From contig CALVCA010000008.1 of assembly GCA_944325895.1 (NCBI GenBank), positions 1 through 64,000 on the forward strand: a stretch of DNA of 64,000 nucleotides, given 5' to 3'. The notes under the pieces are model-generated. The model made no database searches. It was not told the origin of the DNA and saw nothing but the letters and a program-made list of their open reading frames with translations. Source of the stretch: Candidatus Gastranaerophilales bacterium (GTDB lineage Bacteria > Cyanobacteriota > Vampirovibrionia > Gastranaerophilales > Gastranaerophilaceae). The position numbers and the translations under genes were made by a program. How positions within the stretch are numbered: position 1 is the first letter of the stretch; each line of letters begins with the position of its first letter. Below are positions 37,004 to 63,876 of this stretch, one piece after another.

Positions 37004-38470
37004 CTAAACCACGTCAAACACTTTTTTAGCTTCTTCACGGTCATCAAAATGAATCGTACGATCTTTTAGTATTTGATAATCTTCATGACCTTTACCGGCA
37101 ATAACAATTACATCATTGTTATTAGAAATAGTTTTTAATAATTCAATAGCTCTGCCTCTGTCAGGTTCAACCGTAACTTTTTCCGGATTAGTAGATTTCA
37201 AACCGGCAATTATATCGGTTATAATCTGCTGAGGATCTTCGCTGCGTGGATTATCTGAAGTTATTACAATTTTATCAGCAATTTGTTCGGCAATAGCACC
37301 CATTTTAGGACGTTTCGTTGCATCACGGTCACCGCCGCAGCCAAAAAGACAAATCAAATGCCCGTCTTTCGGAGTTATTTCCCTTGCTGATTTAAGAACA
37401 TTTTCCAAACCGTCCGGAGTATGAGCATAATCAACTATAACCAGCGGTTTTTTTGTAATTACTTCAAACCGACCGGCAACACCTTTTACATTTTCTAAAG
37501 CTTTCAATGCAGTTTTTACATCAATATTTTCGGCAATAGCTGTAGTTACTGCAGCCAAAACGTTATATACACTGAACATGCCATTCATATGAAGGCTTAC
37601 TTTATATTCACCTTTTGTCGTTACAAGGACAAACTCTGCACCATTCAATGAAAACTCAATGTCTTTTGCCATTACGTCAGCTCTGTTTTTTATCCCGTAA
37701 GTATATTTTTTAACGCCTTCAGGCACAACATTTAAAAACTTATCACCGTATTCATCATCAATATTTATAACGGCAAAACAGCCTTCCTTAAGATTTTTAA
37801 ACAAAATAGCCTTTGCATTAAAATAATTTTCCATTGTTACATGGTAGTCCAAATGATCCTGAGTTAAATTCGTAAACACAGCACCGTCAAAACGACAGCC
37901 CCCTACACGATTTTGTTCAAGAGCGTGCGAGCTGACTTCCATTACCACATTATCTATTTTTTCAACATCTTTAATCATCCTGAGTGTTGCCTGCAGTTCA
38001 GGTGCCTGCGGAGTGGTATGTTTTGCATCACGGTATTCTCCGTTTGAAGACAATTTATAACCTAAAGTTCCTATCAAAGCACATTTTTGATTATTCTCTT
38101 CAAAAATTTTCTGTATCAAATGAGTCACAGTGGTTTTTCCGTTAGTGCCGGTTATTCCGATTAAATTCAAACCCAAAGACGGTCTTGAATAAAATCTGTC
38201 TGCAATATCTGCAATTTTATGTCTTGTACAAGAAACAACCACCTGAGGAATTTTAATATCTAACGGACGTTCCACCAAAAGTGCAACCGCACCGTTATCA
38301 ATAGCCATTTGAGCAAATTTGTGTCCGTCAGTGTGTTCGCCGACAAGGCATACAAAAATATCACCTTTTTTAGTTGTTTGAGAATTGTATGAAATACCCG
38401 AAACTTCCACACTTTTAAAATTAACCAAATCTTTATAATCTAAATATTCAATAAGTTCTTCAAGTTTCAT
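37004..38470 (-). CDS. murE: UDP-MurNAc-tripeptide synthetase (meso-DAP adding)
   Basis: A 488-residue Mur ligase. The ATP loop is GITGTNGKTTVTH near residue 110, substrate motifs include TTPQAPELQ near 156, and the specificity motif D-N-P-R lies in TSDNPRSEDP near 407, diagnostic for meso-diaminopimelate (Lys-adding enzymes differ here). The C-terminal GKGHEDYQ is present. It acts in the cytoplasm on UDP-MurNAc-L-Ala-D-Glu. Its ATG overlaps the stop of the transpeptidase gene by 4 bp (ATGA), a normal division/cell-wall order. Confidence 0.95.
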   Translation of the reverse strand: MKLEELIEYLDYKDLVNFKSVEVSGISYNSQTTKKGDIFVCLVGEHTDGHKFAQMAIDNGAVALLVERPLDIKIPQVVVSCTRHKIADIADRFYSRPSLGLNLIGITGTNGKTTVTHLIQKIFEENNQKCALIGTLGYKLSSNGEYRDAKHTTPQAPELQATLRMIKDVEKIDNVVMEVSSHALEQNRVGGCRFDGAVFTNLTQDHLDYHVTMENYFNAKAILFKNLKEGCFAVINIDDEYGDKFLNVVPEGVKKYTYGIKNRADVMAKDIEFSLNGAEFVLVTTKGEYKVSLHMNGMFSVYNVLAAVTTAIAENIDVKTALKALENVKGVAGRFEVITKKPLVIVDYAHTPDGLENVLKSAREITPKDGHLICLFGCGGDRDATKRPKMGAIAEQIADKIVITSDNPRSEDPQQIITDIIAGLKSTNPEKVTVEPDRGRAIELLKTISNNNDVIVIAGKGHEDYQILKDRTIHFDDREEAKKVFDVV

Positions 38471-58900: not shown

Positions 58901-59719
58901 ATGAATATAAATTCCGTAAATTTAATTAACAGACCTCAAAAATACAGCATGACAAATGCTCAAAATTCTAATCCTAAATTTTCAGGTGCTCAAAACCGAG
59001 AAAAACGTAATAAAGCAGCGGTTATCGGCACCATAATAGGTACCGGTACGGCATTGGCAATGATAGCAAAACGTCAAGGCTTTTCATTAAATCCGTTGAC
59101 AATCAAAAAAACACCCATAAAAGATTGGGCAATATTTAAAATTGCAAACAGAAAAGAACCTGACAGAAAGCTTTTAGAATTAGAAGAAAAAGAAATTTTA
59201 GCACTTGCCGGAGGCTCAGTAATCGGTGGATTCACAGCCGGTGCGATAGCAGATCGAGAAAATATAAAAGCAAAAGGTCGTGAAGCCTTAAATCAAATTT
59301 TAGGTAACGTTTTAATTCCTGTTGGCTTTGTAGGAGGTACTTCAAAACTTTATAAACGTTATGAACAACAAATTAAATCAGCTATGCCGCAATTTACGGA
59401 AACTGGCAAAAAACATTTAGAACACGCAAATAAATTTATCAGGAATTTACCTGCAGTAGGTTTGACAGCTGCAGCACTATATCTTGGAATAAAAACAGGC
59501 AACAAAGTTACAAACTATATTAACGAAAAACTATTCGGACAAAAGAAAGAAAGGGAATTAAAGACAAGTGATTTTGCTCCGCATGTTGATGACTTATCAT
59601 TGGCTGTAACACTTATGGGGTCTAAAAATTCACCTGTAACAAGCTGCATAACAAGAATTGTTCCGTTATTTTTAGCTATACCTGGATATCAAGTCGGCAA
59701 AGCAAAAGAAAATGCTTAA
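58901..59719 (+). CDS. Lineage-specific membrane protein with N-terminal F-S-G motif
   Basis: A 272-residue protein. The first 35 residues are polar and Asn-rich, ending N-S-N-P-K-F-S-G. The remainder has glycine-rich hydrophobic stretches (near 40-56, 100-115, 135-148, 185-200 and 250-265), suggesting several membrane or membrane-associated helices. No family recognised. Start ATG 58901, 6 nt after a -10 box. The 3' end overlaps the convergent GH77 gene by 4 bp. It is divergent from the 520-aa protein, 183 bp apart. Confidence 0.65.
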   Translation: MNINSVNLINRPQKYSMTNAQNSNPKFSGAQNREKRNKAAVIGTIIGTGTALAMIAKRQGFSLNPLTIKKTPIKDWAIFKIANRKEPDRKLLELEEKEILALAGGSVIGGFTAGAIADRENIKAKGREALNQILGNVLIPVGFVGGTSKLYKRYEQQIKSAMPQFTETGKKHLEHANKFIRNLPAVGLTAAALYLGIKTGNKVTNYINEKLFGQKKERELKTSDFAPHVDDLSLAVTLMGSKNSPVTSCITRIVPLFLAIPGYQVGKAKENA

Positions 59720-61644
59720 TTTTCTTTTAAAATTTCTGCATACTTATCCAGTTCGTCTAGCAAAGGTTTATTTTGCTTTTCCAAATCTTTTCTCATTATA
59801 TCGGCTTCCTGCGGATTTTCATCATTCAACTTTGCGACAAGCATATCAATCTTAGCTCGAACAGCCATTGCTATAACTTCAGGCATATTAATAGCTGTCG
59901 GATTTTTGCTTTGTAAGTTTTTATGATAAGTATCCTCAAAATCATTATTCAAACGCAGTTTCCAATTAGATTTATTTTTTTGTCCGCCGTAATTATAAAC
60001 TTTATCAATACCAAAAAAATCAGAAAAACTTATTTGTATATTTTTGGAAGTTCTAAACAATTCAGCAAATTTAGCTTTAAGTAACTCTGTCGGATTCTGT
60101 TGAATTTTTCTTTTAAAAATTTCTTTTTGTTCAGCATGCTTAGGATCAGCATTTAAAAATCCTGCTAAATAATCGGTATTCCAGGCAGCATTTGTTTTGT
60201 CCATATGTATAGCCGGAATAGAATCATGTGAACCAACTAAAGCCCAATAATTAAACGGTGTATACTCACCCCTTCGCCATTCAAGCTGGGTAATACCGGG
60301 AAGATTAAGCTCGTCATAAAATATATCTGAAAACACAGAAGTTTTAGTACATAAATCCTCCCATACGGCATCTTGCGGATTTAAACCGTGCTTTTCCATT
60401 ATAGGAATAACTACTTCTTTTAATATTTTTTTATAATTTCCTGATGGATCTATTTCAGGTAAATTTGAAATATTATCAGCTTCCAATTTATCTCTTTGAA
60501 CAACTTTATTAATTATTACAACTGAATCTTCTTTACAAATATATGGATCTACCAATCCTAAAACATGATCGACCCTGATATTATCAAAATATTTTAAAGC
60601 ATAATCAATTTTATCACTCAAAAGTTGTCCGGCAATTCCTAAAGATCCATCCTCGTTAAACAATTTTTTAGGATCTAAAACAGGAATTTCCCATACTTGA
60701 GGGCCGTTGCCATAACCTCCGTAAGGGCAGCCTAATTTATAACCTTTAAGAAAAGCACGCTGATTTGCCCATAATTCACTGTTTGAAAATCCGACAAGTA
60801 AATCATTAATATACTTAAAATTAAGTTCTTCACGCTGCTTTGTTTTTTCTTGTATCTGTTTATCTGCTAAAAATTGTATAAAACTGTTTTTTTCAATCTT
60901 GTTTCCTGAACGTTTTACAATAAAATCAAGCCTTTTTTGTGCAGCAGGATCTCCTTCTTGAATTTTTCCAATCAAATCCCTGTCAATTTTACTGTCCCAT
61001 TTTTCAAACTCCTCGGTTTTGTATATATTAGACAAAACTTTAAATACACCGTCAAAAAATAATCTATTGCCATTTTCTGCTTTAAACTTTATAAATTCAT
61101 CATTTAACCTCAATGCATCAGAATTTTCAGCTTTTAATAAAGATTTAAATTTAAAATAAGCTTCATTAAGAGCAATATCATAGTTTTCAAAAGCTTCATA
61201 AAAATTAGTCATATTGTAATTGGCATTTTTTATTGAATTTATATAAGTTACATTATTATAAGTTTCCGGCGATAATATACACGCATACTCTTTTTGAGTA
61301 AGATCATATAAGTCAATAAATAAATTATTTTTTGAAAAAACCTTACTTTCATATGGTGAAAAATCTTTATTGCTTATTTTGCCTACAGGTCCAAGCTGAT
61401 TAGAATTAAATCCATGCAATTTTTCAAATTCAATAAGCTTAAATGCCCCGGCAGAATATGGCGAACCGATATTTGAATCACGTCCCAAAGATGGATAACA
61501 CGACCCGTGTATAATCATTGCAACATTTTCTACCCCTAAAAATTCTTTTCCTTGTTGTAATGCTTTTTTATATGGTTCTTTTTCATTATCTTTCAATTTA
61601 CGGTGAAAGCTTAGATTATAATTTTGTATACTCCTTATTAACAA
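59716..61644 (-). CDS. malQ: GH77 4-alpha-glucanotransferase-like enzyme
   Basis: A 642-residue protein of the amylomaltase family, longer than most bacterial MalQ (about 500-550). It keeps the early motifs GRDSNIGSPYSAGAFKLIEF and QLGPVGKI...FSPYESKVF. All three catalytic acids are present: the nucleophile in IRVDHVLGLVDPY near 355, the acid/base Glu in VWEDLCT near 426, and the Asp in VGSHDS near 472. It moves glucan segments in glycogen or maltodextrin metabolism. The N-terminus is MLIRSIQNYNLSFHRKL, an added polar segment. The start is TTG 61644, with GGAG 8 nt upstream inside the preceding gene. Confidence 0.85.
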   Translation of the reverse strand: MLIRSIQNYNLSFHRKLKDNEKEPYKKALQQGKEFLGVENVAMIIHGSCYPSLGRDSNIGSPYSAGAFKLIEFEKLHGFNSNQLGPVGKISNKDFSPYESKVFSKNNLFIDLYDLTQKEYACILSPETYNNVTYINSIKNANYNMTNFYEAFENYDIALNEAYFKFKSLLKAENSDALRLNDEFIKFKAENGNRLFFDGVFKVLSNIYKTEEFEKWDSKIDRDLIGKIQEGDPAAQKRLDFIVKRSGNKIEKNSFIQFLADKQIQEKTKQREELNFKYINDLLVGFSNSELWANQRAFLKGYKLGCPYGGYGNGPQVWEIPVLDPKKLFNEDGSLGIAGQLLSDKIDYALKYFDNIRVDHVLGLVDPYICKEDSVVIINKVVQRDKLEADNISNLPEIDPSGNYKKILKEVVIPIMEKHGLNPQDAVWEDLCTKTSVFSDIFYDELNLPGITQLEWRRGEYTPFNYWALVGSHDSIPAIHMDKTNAAWNTDYLAGFLNADPKHAEQKEIFKRKIQQNPTELLKAKFAELFRTSKNIQISFSDFFGIDKVYNYGGQKNKSNWKLRLNNDFEDTYHKNLQSKNPTAINMPEVIAMAVRAKIDMLVAKLNDENPQEADIMRKDLEKQNKPLLDELDKYAEILKEN

Positions 61645-63111
61645 TTATATTTCTCCAAGAATTTCCAACTTAAAATCACACCCTATTTCTTCACCGGCTA
61701 AAACAACAATGTTGTTGATATAAAGGGAAAGTAACCCGTAAAATACCTGCCTGAAATCCATTGGAACAAGCAATTTTGGAGTATCAATATCACATTTTTT
61801 TGCCAATCTTAATATTTTATTTGCCATTTTTTCTGCAAATTCACCATCAATTTTTACAATTGCATCCTCGCCGTCTTCCAAATATAATAACAAATCATCC
61901 AATGTTTTATCCGACAATTCAATAACACCTATGACACCTTCATTATTTGCGTATTTTTTACAAATTTGACGTGACAAAGCAAGCCGGAGTTTTTTTAATA
62001 AATCAGATTTAGTACTGTCTTCCGCATAATCATTAATTTTTTCAAAAATATATGTGATATCTTTGATTGAAACTTTTTCACGAATTAAACTTGTTAAAAT
62101 AAACTTCAATTCAGATAATGATAAATAATCAGGAATTATATTTTCGACAAGAAACGGATTATTATTATTGACAACTTCAATATATTTATCCAAGTCATCA
62201 TAATCCAATAAATCATCTGCGTATTTTACGGCAATAAATTCCAAAGCTTTTGCGATATATTCAGTTCCGGTAAGCCCGTGATACCAAAAATCTTTTGTTT
62301 TTTCTTTTTCAATCCAAACAGTTTTTTTACCGGTAATCTTATCAATGCCATAAACGGAATTTTTAATTTTCTTTTCCAATTTTAACTCATCGGCATAAAA
62401 CATCAAGTAATCCGGATAGATTAATGCCCTAAAGACTTCATCGCCACGGACTTTAATACAAAATTCAAACGGATTTAAATTTTCATCATCACGGAACACA
62501 ATTTTAGGAATAACATAACCGATTTCTTCCGTCAGTTTAAGTCTTGATTTAACTGTTTCAGCTATTAATTCTTCCTCTTGCGAATCTCTATCGGAATCAA
62601 CATATCCCAAAAGTTCTTCACTCAATGCTATACAAAGTTTATCTTCATTTAGTTTTGAAAACATAACATCAGGAGAAGTTTCCTTTGCTAATTTAAGCTT
62701 TAAATCGTCCAATTCTTTTAATCCGGCAGAAATTTTATCATTAAGTTTTTTTCTGCCTGCAGGATCAGCTCCGTCAAGTTCCATCTTAATTTTAGCTATT
62801 TTATCTTTTTGCTGCCTGATTTTCGTTTGAAGATCTAAACAATTTTCATAAGGTGTTAACTTTGGAGAAAGCATTTTTTCCATTTGGCTTTTAAATGTAG
62901 AGATGTTGATTTCGTCAGCATTTTCTATATTATTTTTAGCATCCGTCATAAAAATACAATTATAGACAATACCGTCATTTGATTCGACTTCTTGCATACT
63001 GTACAGTTCCCAGCCGTTCATAGACATTTCATTCAACAAATTTTGCAATTCCTGAACATCTTCTCCGGAGCATGTTTTAACAACATATTTAGTTTTATTT
63101 TTATTATACAT
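61645..63111 (-). CDS. Soluble FlhA/SctV cytosolic-domain-like protein with DUF4177-like head
   Basis: A roughly 488-residue protein without any membrane segment. Residues 8-60 resemble DUF4177 (LNEMSMNGWELYSMQEVE). Residues 90-150 are coiled coil. From about 155 to the end it follows the cytosolic part of FHIPEP export-gate proteins: LCIALSEELLGYVD, RLKLTEEIGYVIPKIVFRDD, TVWIEKEKTKDFWYHG, IPDYLSLSELKFILTSLIRE, KVSIKDITYIFEKINDYAE, ALSRQICKKYA. In flagellar and type III secretion systems this domain receives substrates and chaperones, but it is normally attached to eight membrane helices that are absent here. ATG 63111 follows TAGGATAGG. It lies between uridine phosphorylase and the GH77 gene in one operon. 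Confidence 0.78.
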   Translation of the reverse strand: MYNKNKTKYVVKTCSGEDVQELQNLLNEMSMNGWELYSMQEVESNDGIVYNCIFMTDAKNNIENADEINISTFKSQMEKMLSPKLTPYENCLDLQTKIRQQKDKIAKIKMELDGADPAGRKKLNDKISAGLKELDDLKLKLAKETSPDVMFSKLNEDKLCIALSEELLGYVDSDRDSQEEELIAETVKSRLKLTEEIGYVIPKIVFRDDENLNPFEFCIKVRGDEVFRALIYPDYLMFYADELKLEKKIKNSVYGIDKITGKKTVWIEKEKTKDFWYHGLTGTEYIAKALEFIAVKYADDLLDYDDLDKYIEVVNNNNPFLVENIIPDYLSLSELKFILTSLIREKVSIKDITYIFEKINDYAEDSTKSDLLKKLRLALSRQICKKYANNEGVIGVIELSDKTLDDLLLYLEDGEDAIVKIDGEFAEKMANKILRLAKKCDIDTPKLLVPMDFRQVFYGLLSLYINNIVVLAGEEIGCDFKLEILGEI

Positions 63112-63117
63112 AAACAC

Positions 63118-63876
63118 CTATCCTATAAGAATTTTCAATGCTTCTATTGCGGTTTTTATAGCTTTGTCAGTATCATGAACAACCGGATTGTTTAAACCGA
63201 GTTTTTCTCTTTCCTGATTAGCAACAGTTAAAAAAACTGATCCTATTTTTACCTTTAAAAAACTTGCAACTACAAATAATGCCGCCGACTCCATTTCAGA
63301 TGCAAGACATCCCAAACGTTTCCAGGCTTCCCATTTATTTGTTAATTCATAGCTAACAGGCATTATAGAAGGACTATGCTGACCATAAAAAGAATCTTTA
63401 CATTGAACAATACCTGTATGGGACTTATAACCCAAATTTTTGACAGCAGAATTTAAAGCATTAACTACATCTATATTGGCAACTGCCGGAAATTCAACAG
63501 GAGCATACTCTTTACTGGTGCCTTCCATTCTCACGGCTCCGGTTGCAATAACAATATCACCGCTTTCCACATCAACATCAATACCGCCACAGGTACCGAC
63601 TCTTATAAAAGTTTTAGCACCTATTTTCACCAATTCTTCTAAAGCAATGGCTGCGGACGGACCGCCGATGCCGGTTGATGTTACACTGACCTTTACTCCG
63701 TTTAGATAACCTGTATATGTTGTATATTCTCGTTTATCTGCTATCAATTTAGCATCATCAAAATACTCCGCAATTTTTTGGCATCTTTTCGGATCGCCGG
63801 GCAATATAACATATTCTCCGACATCACCTTCTTTTAAACCTATATGATATTGTGTACCGTCCTGTGAATATTTCAT
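63118..63876 (-). CDS. udp: Uridine phosphorylase
   Basis: A 252-residue nucleoside phosphorylase of the NP-I (Udp/DeoD) family. It shows the phosphate-binding [10 protein letters not shown] near residue 23, [13 protein letters not shown] near 90, and the ribose-binding [10 protein letters not shown] near 193. CKDSFYGQH near 160 fits uridine phosphorylase better than purine phosphorylase; substrate preference is inferred. It cleaves uridine to uracil and ribose-1-phosphate. Start after AAGGAGCAGTTA. The FlhA-like gene starts 6 bp beyond its stop. Confidence 0.9.

Follow-up and report, generated by a model that had tools for sequence, protein, structure and literature searches.

FlhX of Helicobacter is a homologue of the FlhB C-domain that is encoded separately, beside the full-length gene. 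Buchnera carries flagellar basal bodies without a filament, the reduced flagellum of one lineage. One report describes short SctQ/SpaO isoforms of injectisomes in which the C-terminal part is made separately (PMC13059759). Another presents the cytosolic domain of FlhA (FlhA-C) as a docking platform for chaperone-substrate complexes (PMC5932034). In Salmonella FlhA, the residues D456, F459 and T490 form the chaperone dock, and the linker residues E351, W354 and D356 bind the domains D1 and D3 of the neighbouring subunit and stabilise the ring (PMC8166844). In both FlhA and SctV, a groove on the adjacent protomer takes up the linker (PMC8213127), and domain motion of FlhA needs G368 of the GYXLI motif (PMC9431611). 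Flagellin-less gene sets have been described in earlier work as incomplete flagella (PMC3787301, PMC4040986, PMC5877343).

A soluble paralog of the FlhA cytosolic domain

The window, the whole stretch of 64,000 nucleotides analysed, is part of a Gastranaerophilales genome (G000; 1.69 Mb, 47 contigs, 99.8% complete). It encodes a stand-alone FlhA-C paralog, labelled SA, with the following features and neighbours:

61645..63117, minus strand: SA gene, 490 aa from GTG at 63117 or 488 aa from ATG at 63111, stop codon 61645-61647
62932..63111, minus strand: SA head domain, residues 1-60, DUF4177-like beta-alpha-beta-beta (model and profile matches)
62677..62853, minus strand: SA coiled-coil hairpin, residues 87-145 (AlphaFold2 model)
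62653..62676, minus strand: SA FlhA-linker (FlhAL) motif SPDVMFSK, residues 146-153 (alignment)
61648..62652, minus strand: SA FlhA-C domains D1-D4, residues 154-488 (profile, PDB matches, model)
62332..62334, minus strand: codon of SA T260, at the position of the lost chaperone-dock residue F459 of FlhA
62248..62250, minus strand: codon of SA K288, at the position of the lost chaperone-dock residue T490 of FlhA
59716..61644, minus strand: malQ, 4-alpha-glucanotransferase-like, directly downstream of SA (named by eye)
63118..63876, minus strand: udp, uridine-phosphorylase-like, directly upstream of SA (named by eye)

The genes udp, SA and malQ are packed without gaps. The Pfam family FHIPEP (PF00771) matched SA with E 4.2e-49 and 168 bits, far above the cut-off of 29.1, and identifies the protein as a homolog; the equivalog TIGR01398 scored 156 bits, below its cut-off of 772. 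Residues 143-477 of SA correspond to positions 317-653 of the 657 profile positions, and since the match begins at position 317, SA covers the cytosolic half only. Solved FlhA-C structures in the PDB were matched by sequence with E values down to 2e-24. An AlphaFold2 model of SA had a mean pLDDT of 81, and its residues 153-488 aligned to the nonameric FlhA 7amy with Z 30.4 and rmsd 2.6 over 329 residues; the D1-D4 fold of the FlhA cytosolic domain is thus present in the predicted single chain. No transmembrane helix was detected in SA, with a highest 19-residue hydropathy of 1.41 versus 3.03 in the full-length FlhA that G000 also encodes. The membrane half with the FHIPEP loop is absent, and a DUF4177-like head and a coiled-coil hairpin (predicted helices 87-112 and 117-144 in the AlphaFold2 model) take its place. 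Judged by its sequence, SA is a soluble, acidic protein. The sequence-only reading had claimed a C-terminal FlhA/SctV cytosolic domain, a missing membrane part and a head of its own, and had suggested structure prediction as a check; these claims held, and it is firmly supported that SA is a real, conserved and soluble FlhA-C paralog.

Taken singly, SA matched DUF4177 (PF13783) weakly (E 0.055, under the curated cut-off), as did its head alone (18.3 bits, curated cut-off 25 bits). The family matched 29 of 30 orthologous heads, again weakly, with a best E of 3.4e-5. A structure search of the PDB with the head gave nothing at E 0.001 or better, and the best matches in a viral structure library were small DUF1737/DUF4177-type proteins (weak, E 1e-3 to 1e-1). 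The head domain was found nowhere else in the G000 genome. Across 49 orthologs the head carries 10 of the 33 invariant columns, and it is the region with the lowest nonsynonymous distance.

A filament-less export gene set in the same genome

None of the matches of the genome to FliP, FlhB, FliI, rod proteins or flagellin falls inside the window, as had been noticed beforehand. Elsewhere in G000 a flagellar-type export set, labelled machine B, was located:

C15:14769-20535: full-length FlhA, in a fliE-fliF-(333 aa)-fliH-flhA operon
C6:101173-105000: FliN-type, FliO, FliP, FliQ, FliR
C43:231-2441: FlgB, FlgC, two FlgG-type genes
C25:14304-16399: FliJ-, FliK-, FlgE-like genes
C5:62525-63871: FliI
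C3:131648-132673: FlhB

The export gate and the rod proteins are complete, though their genes are scattered, and no flagellin was found in the genome. This complete gate without flagellin agrees with the link to a remodelled export apparatus that the sequence-only reading had suggested. The genome search that it had proposed turned up a full-length FlhA as well, which SA does not replace. With the full FlhA and the whole gate encoded elsewhere in G000, SA is an extra paralog. A recent gene split is ruled out: no membrane half is adjacent, the neighbours are udp and malQ, the full FlhA lies on another contig and the architecture is order-wide.

For comparison, 58 Gastranaerophilales genomes with any FHIPEP protein were used, belonging to seven families (f1 and f7 among them); the FlhA-A, FlhA-B and SA genes per genome were counted by eye from the match table. 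Full-length FlhA falls into two classes, FlhA-A with about 860-890 bits in 26 genomes and FlhA-B with about 670-730 bits in 54 genomes; the four genomes lacking FlhA-B are at most 88% complete. FliP splits into the same two classes. Flagellin was present in all 26 genomes with FlhA-A. Genomes with FlhA-B only had no flagellin, except G042, G051 and one weak match in G014; in G042 and G051, FlhA-A may be missing from the assembly. Flagellin in the relatives tracks FlhA-A, not FlhA-B, and in many genomes machine B coexists with a separate true flagellar set. A decayed flagellum was rejected as the whole story of machine B, because flagellated relatives carry both sets.

Several proteins encoded at or near the machine-B loci deserve mention. 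The 333-aa protein between fliF and fliH (G000:C15:16755-17753, locus L113) matched no family above cut-off and is possibly a FliG-like replacement. Between fliQ and fliR, a 120-aa protein (G000:C6:103859-104221, locus L134) has a signal-peptide-like start and resembles T2SS-T3SS_pil_N (PF13629) with E 9e-5, just under the cut-off; it could be an envelope partner of machine B. A 580-aa protein at the same locus (G000:C6:99245-100987, minus strand) is divergent from the fliN-fliR genes and starts with MGLSASQARLLTITAR, somewhat like the start of a protein at locus L130, MGIAANKFRLLFLKAH; the two proteins may possibly represent a family of export substrates. In this flagellin-less genome a gene for a Sigma-70-family, FliA-like sigma factor adjoins FliI (G000:C5:61492-62337, minus strand, locus L143) and could control machine B. 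A short F-x-G/K motif was seen near the N-terminus of several proteins (PKFSGAQ, QNFEGKR, VSFKANP, YFVSFGKN), encoded in the window at 58901-59719 and elsewhere at the loci L113, L134 and L148. It may be a lineage-specific targeting signal.

Descent, distribution and selection

In a phylogenetic tree, FlhA-A and the reference FlhAs were separated from FlhA-B, SA and one other paralog with a split support of 100/100; SA formed one group and FlhA-B another (93/96). SA shares 30-32% identity with FlhA-B over 375 aa and 20-25% with FlhA-A. A linker motif NP/SPxxMY is common to FlhA-B, SA and a paralog of genome G028 and is absent from FlhA-A. In the alignment, SPDVMFSK of SA corresponds to NPNRMYER of the machine-B FlhA; this match of the anchors, SPxxMY to NPxxMY, is one of sequence only. 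Tree, identity and linker motif make it less likely that SA is a paralog of the flagellar FlhA. SA is likely the sister of FlhA-B, a relation held at this strength because the tree was rooted with three outside FlhAs only and has long branches, that of SA included. By descent and co-occurrence, the affiliation of SA to machine B is well supported.

SA was found in 55 of the 58 genomes and was missing from G017, G018 and G055. Most of the 29 flagellin-less genomes, in which machine B alone is left, carry it. The architecture of head, hairpin and FlhA-C is common to the SA proteins of all seven families; those from families other than f1 are 35-40% identical to the SA of the window. In 145 genomes sampled around a different order of this class, full-length SA occurred only in f1 among the matches listed; for the families f8-f15 no SA was among the matches listed, though several have B-like FlhAs. 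In the class as sampled, SA was seen solely where full-length FHIPEP genes exist. The near-complete genomes G017 and G018 kept machine B without SA; hence SA is dispensable. Contig C62 of G007 carries two SA copies, at 37575 and 65959.

The nonsynonymous distance among SA genes was about 0.08-0.14, with synonymous sites near saturation, and these sequence comparisons indicate that SA is under strong purifying selection. A pseudogene is ruled out by this selection and by the lack of stop codons. SA evolved several times faster than FlhA-B.

Conserved and lost residues

The residues of 26 SA orthologs were compared in Salmonella FlhA numbering. Phenylalanine 459 is lost, mostly to T or S, and T490 is replaced by variable residues. 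D456, kept in 25 of the 26 orthologs, is the only dock residue retained. The glycine of the GYXLI hinge motif (G368) is a serine and D2 has a three-residue deletion in all 26. Both full-length FlhA classes conserve F459, T490 and the GYXLI glycine. SA lost 33 of 58 FlhA-conserved positions, including much of D4. Retained were the linker P and M/F, R391, W465, R579 and R655, together with most conserved D3 positions.

Four sibling FlhA-C paralogs were detected in other genomes:

G028:C9:81041-82822: FlhA-C paralog, L144
G048:C24:101971-102978: FlhA-C paralog, L145
G033:C23:22423-23061: FlhA-C paralog, L146
G027:C21:34182-34862: FlhA-C paralog, L147

All four keep the linker region, D1 and D3. 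Of the approximately 50 residues of D2 just 6-16 are left, and D4 is also missing from three. At its N-terminus the G028 paralog resembles the 333-aa protein encoded between fliF and fliH in the machine-B operon (24% over 188 aa, pairwise E 4e-10), and a hydrophobic segment follows this stretch. Extra FlhA-type matches were also obtained in other genomes of the same genus as G028.

The sequence-only reading had proposed a stand-alone receiver for export substrates. Such a soluble receiver of substrates or chaperones, passing cargo to the gate with an altered dock, could draw on the known docking function of FlhA-C (PMC5932034), on the retained D456 and on a head and coiled coil that could bind a substrate. 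It is unlikely, with F459, T490 and the GYXLI glycine lost and D2 shortened in the orthologs compared and D2 dropped altogether by the siblings. The loss of the dock, the kept D1/D3 core and the D2-less siblings point to a non-docking accessory subunit rather than a receiver. SA is probably such a soluble accessory subunit of machine B, with a mechanism that we infer. A non-docking ring subunit is favoured mainly by the pattern common to SA and its siblings, a packing core kept and a dock lost.

Gene neighbourhood and proposed role

In the f1 relatives the order rsmI-bamA-skp-udp-SA(-malQ) is nearly fixed, being found with most f1 orthologs; skp/ompH, bamA and rsmI, named by eye, precede udp, and malQ adjoins SA in most cases. 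This order would suit an SA that has quit secretion for another task, e.g., in envelope assembly or carbohydrate metabolism, as would the many lost FlhA-conserved positions. However, the neighbours of SA differ in the other families, SA is confined to genomes with full-length FHIPEP genes in the class as sampled, and one sibling paralog is joined to a machine-B-like part, which makes a departure from secretion quite improbable.

SA and the machine-B genes are not clustered together. Family f7 is the sole family with export genes adjoining SA, a fliJ-fliK-flgD-flgE series directly after it. These are probably hook genes of the true flagellum; they look flagellar because their FliJ is unlike that of machine B. 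A link between SA and export by neighbourhood was not adopted, for it is present in f7 only and could arise by chance. The adjacency to fliJ-fliK would also fit a cytosolic regulator acting apart from any ring, which titrates export components (e.g., FliJ/FliH or substrates) or senses a cytosolic signal via the DUF4177 head; the invariant, slowly evolving head and the soluble, acidic nature of the protein are consistent with this function. We consider it improbable, as a linker anchor retained by sequence, together with the D1/D3 core, hints at packing, and the adjacency concerns one family of seven, with no export genes beside SA elsewhere.

Our preferred reading, with a probability of roughly 0.45, is that SA is an order-specific, membrane-free FlhA-C paralog that serves as a cytosolic, non-docking ring subunit of machine B. 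SA would pack against or into the FlhA ring via the linker-groove contact, or alternatively might build its own ring. It would hold the DUF4177 head on a stalk toward a partner and may tune which substrates reach the gate, without receiving chaperone-bound cargo itself. More speculatively, the FlhA cytosolic ring of Gastranaerophilales may include soluble FlhA-C paralogs without a dock as building blocks or as a cap, a modular and exchangeable ring of a conserved non-motility export machine; as part of the same tentative picture, SA would occupy it nearly everywhere and the D2-less paralogs in some lineages.

SA would show, across a whole order, the FlhA/SctV cytosolic domain in use away from the gate, and nature would here have separated the packing of a ring from the docking of cargo. 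The results point to a second, motility-independent flagellar-type export machine, one that nearly every member of this common group of gut bacteria carries. Through its substrates, uncultured gut Melainabacteria would be able to act on their surroundings.

Comparison with known systems

The open-access literature searched contained no description of SA and nothing relevant on FHIPEP combined with DUF4177 or on a soluble FlhA; a modular, exchangeable cytosolic ring was not described there for flagella or injectisomes. SA shares with the cytosolic domain of FlhA/SctV the predicted D1-D4 fold and, by sequence, a putative linker anchor. Unlike these proteins, it lacks the membrane half with the FHIPEP loop, the chaperone dock and the GYXLI glycine, bears a DUF4177-like head and a coiled coil, and coexists with a full-length FlhA. 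FlhX is similar in that a gene of its own encodes just the cytosolic half of an export-gate protein, but it corresponds to a different gate protein and has no extra head domain. The short SctQ/SpaO forms likewise represent the C-terminal part of an export component as a separate protein; in contrast to SA, SctQ/SpaO is a sorting-platform protein and the short form is an isoform of one gene, not a diverged paralog. Machine B, known here from its genes, resembles the Buchnera basal bodies as a flagellar-type gate with a rod and without flagellin, but differs in being a paralogous second set found alongside true flagella.
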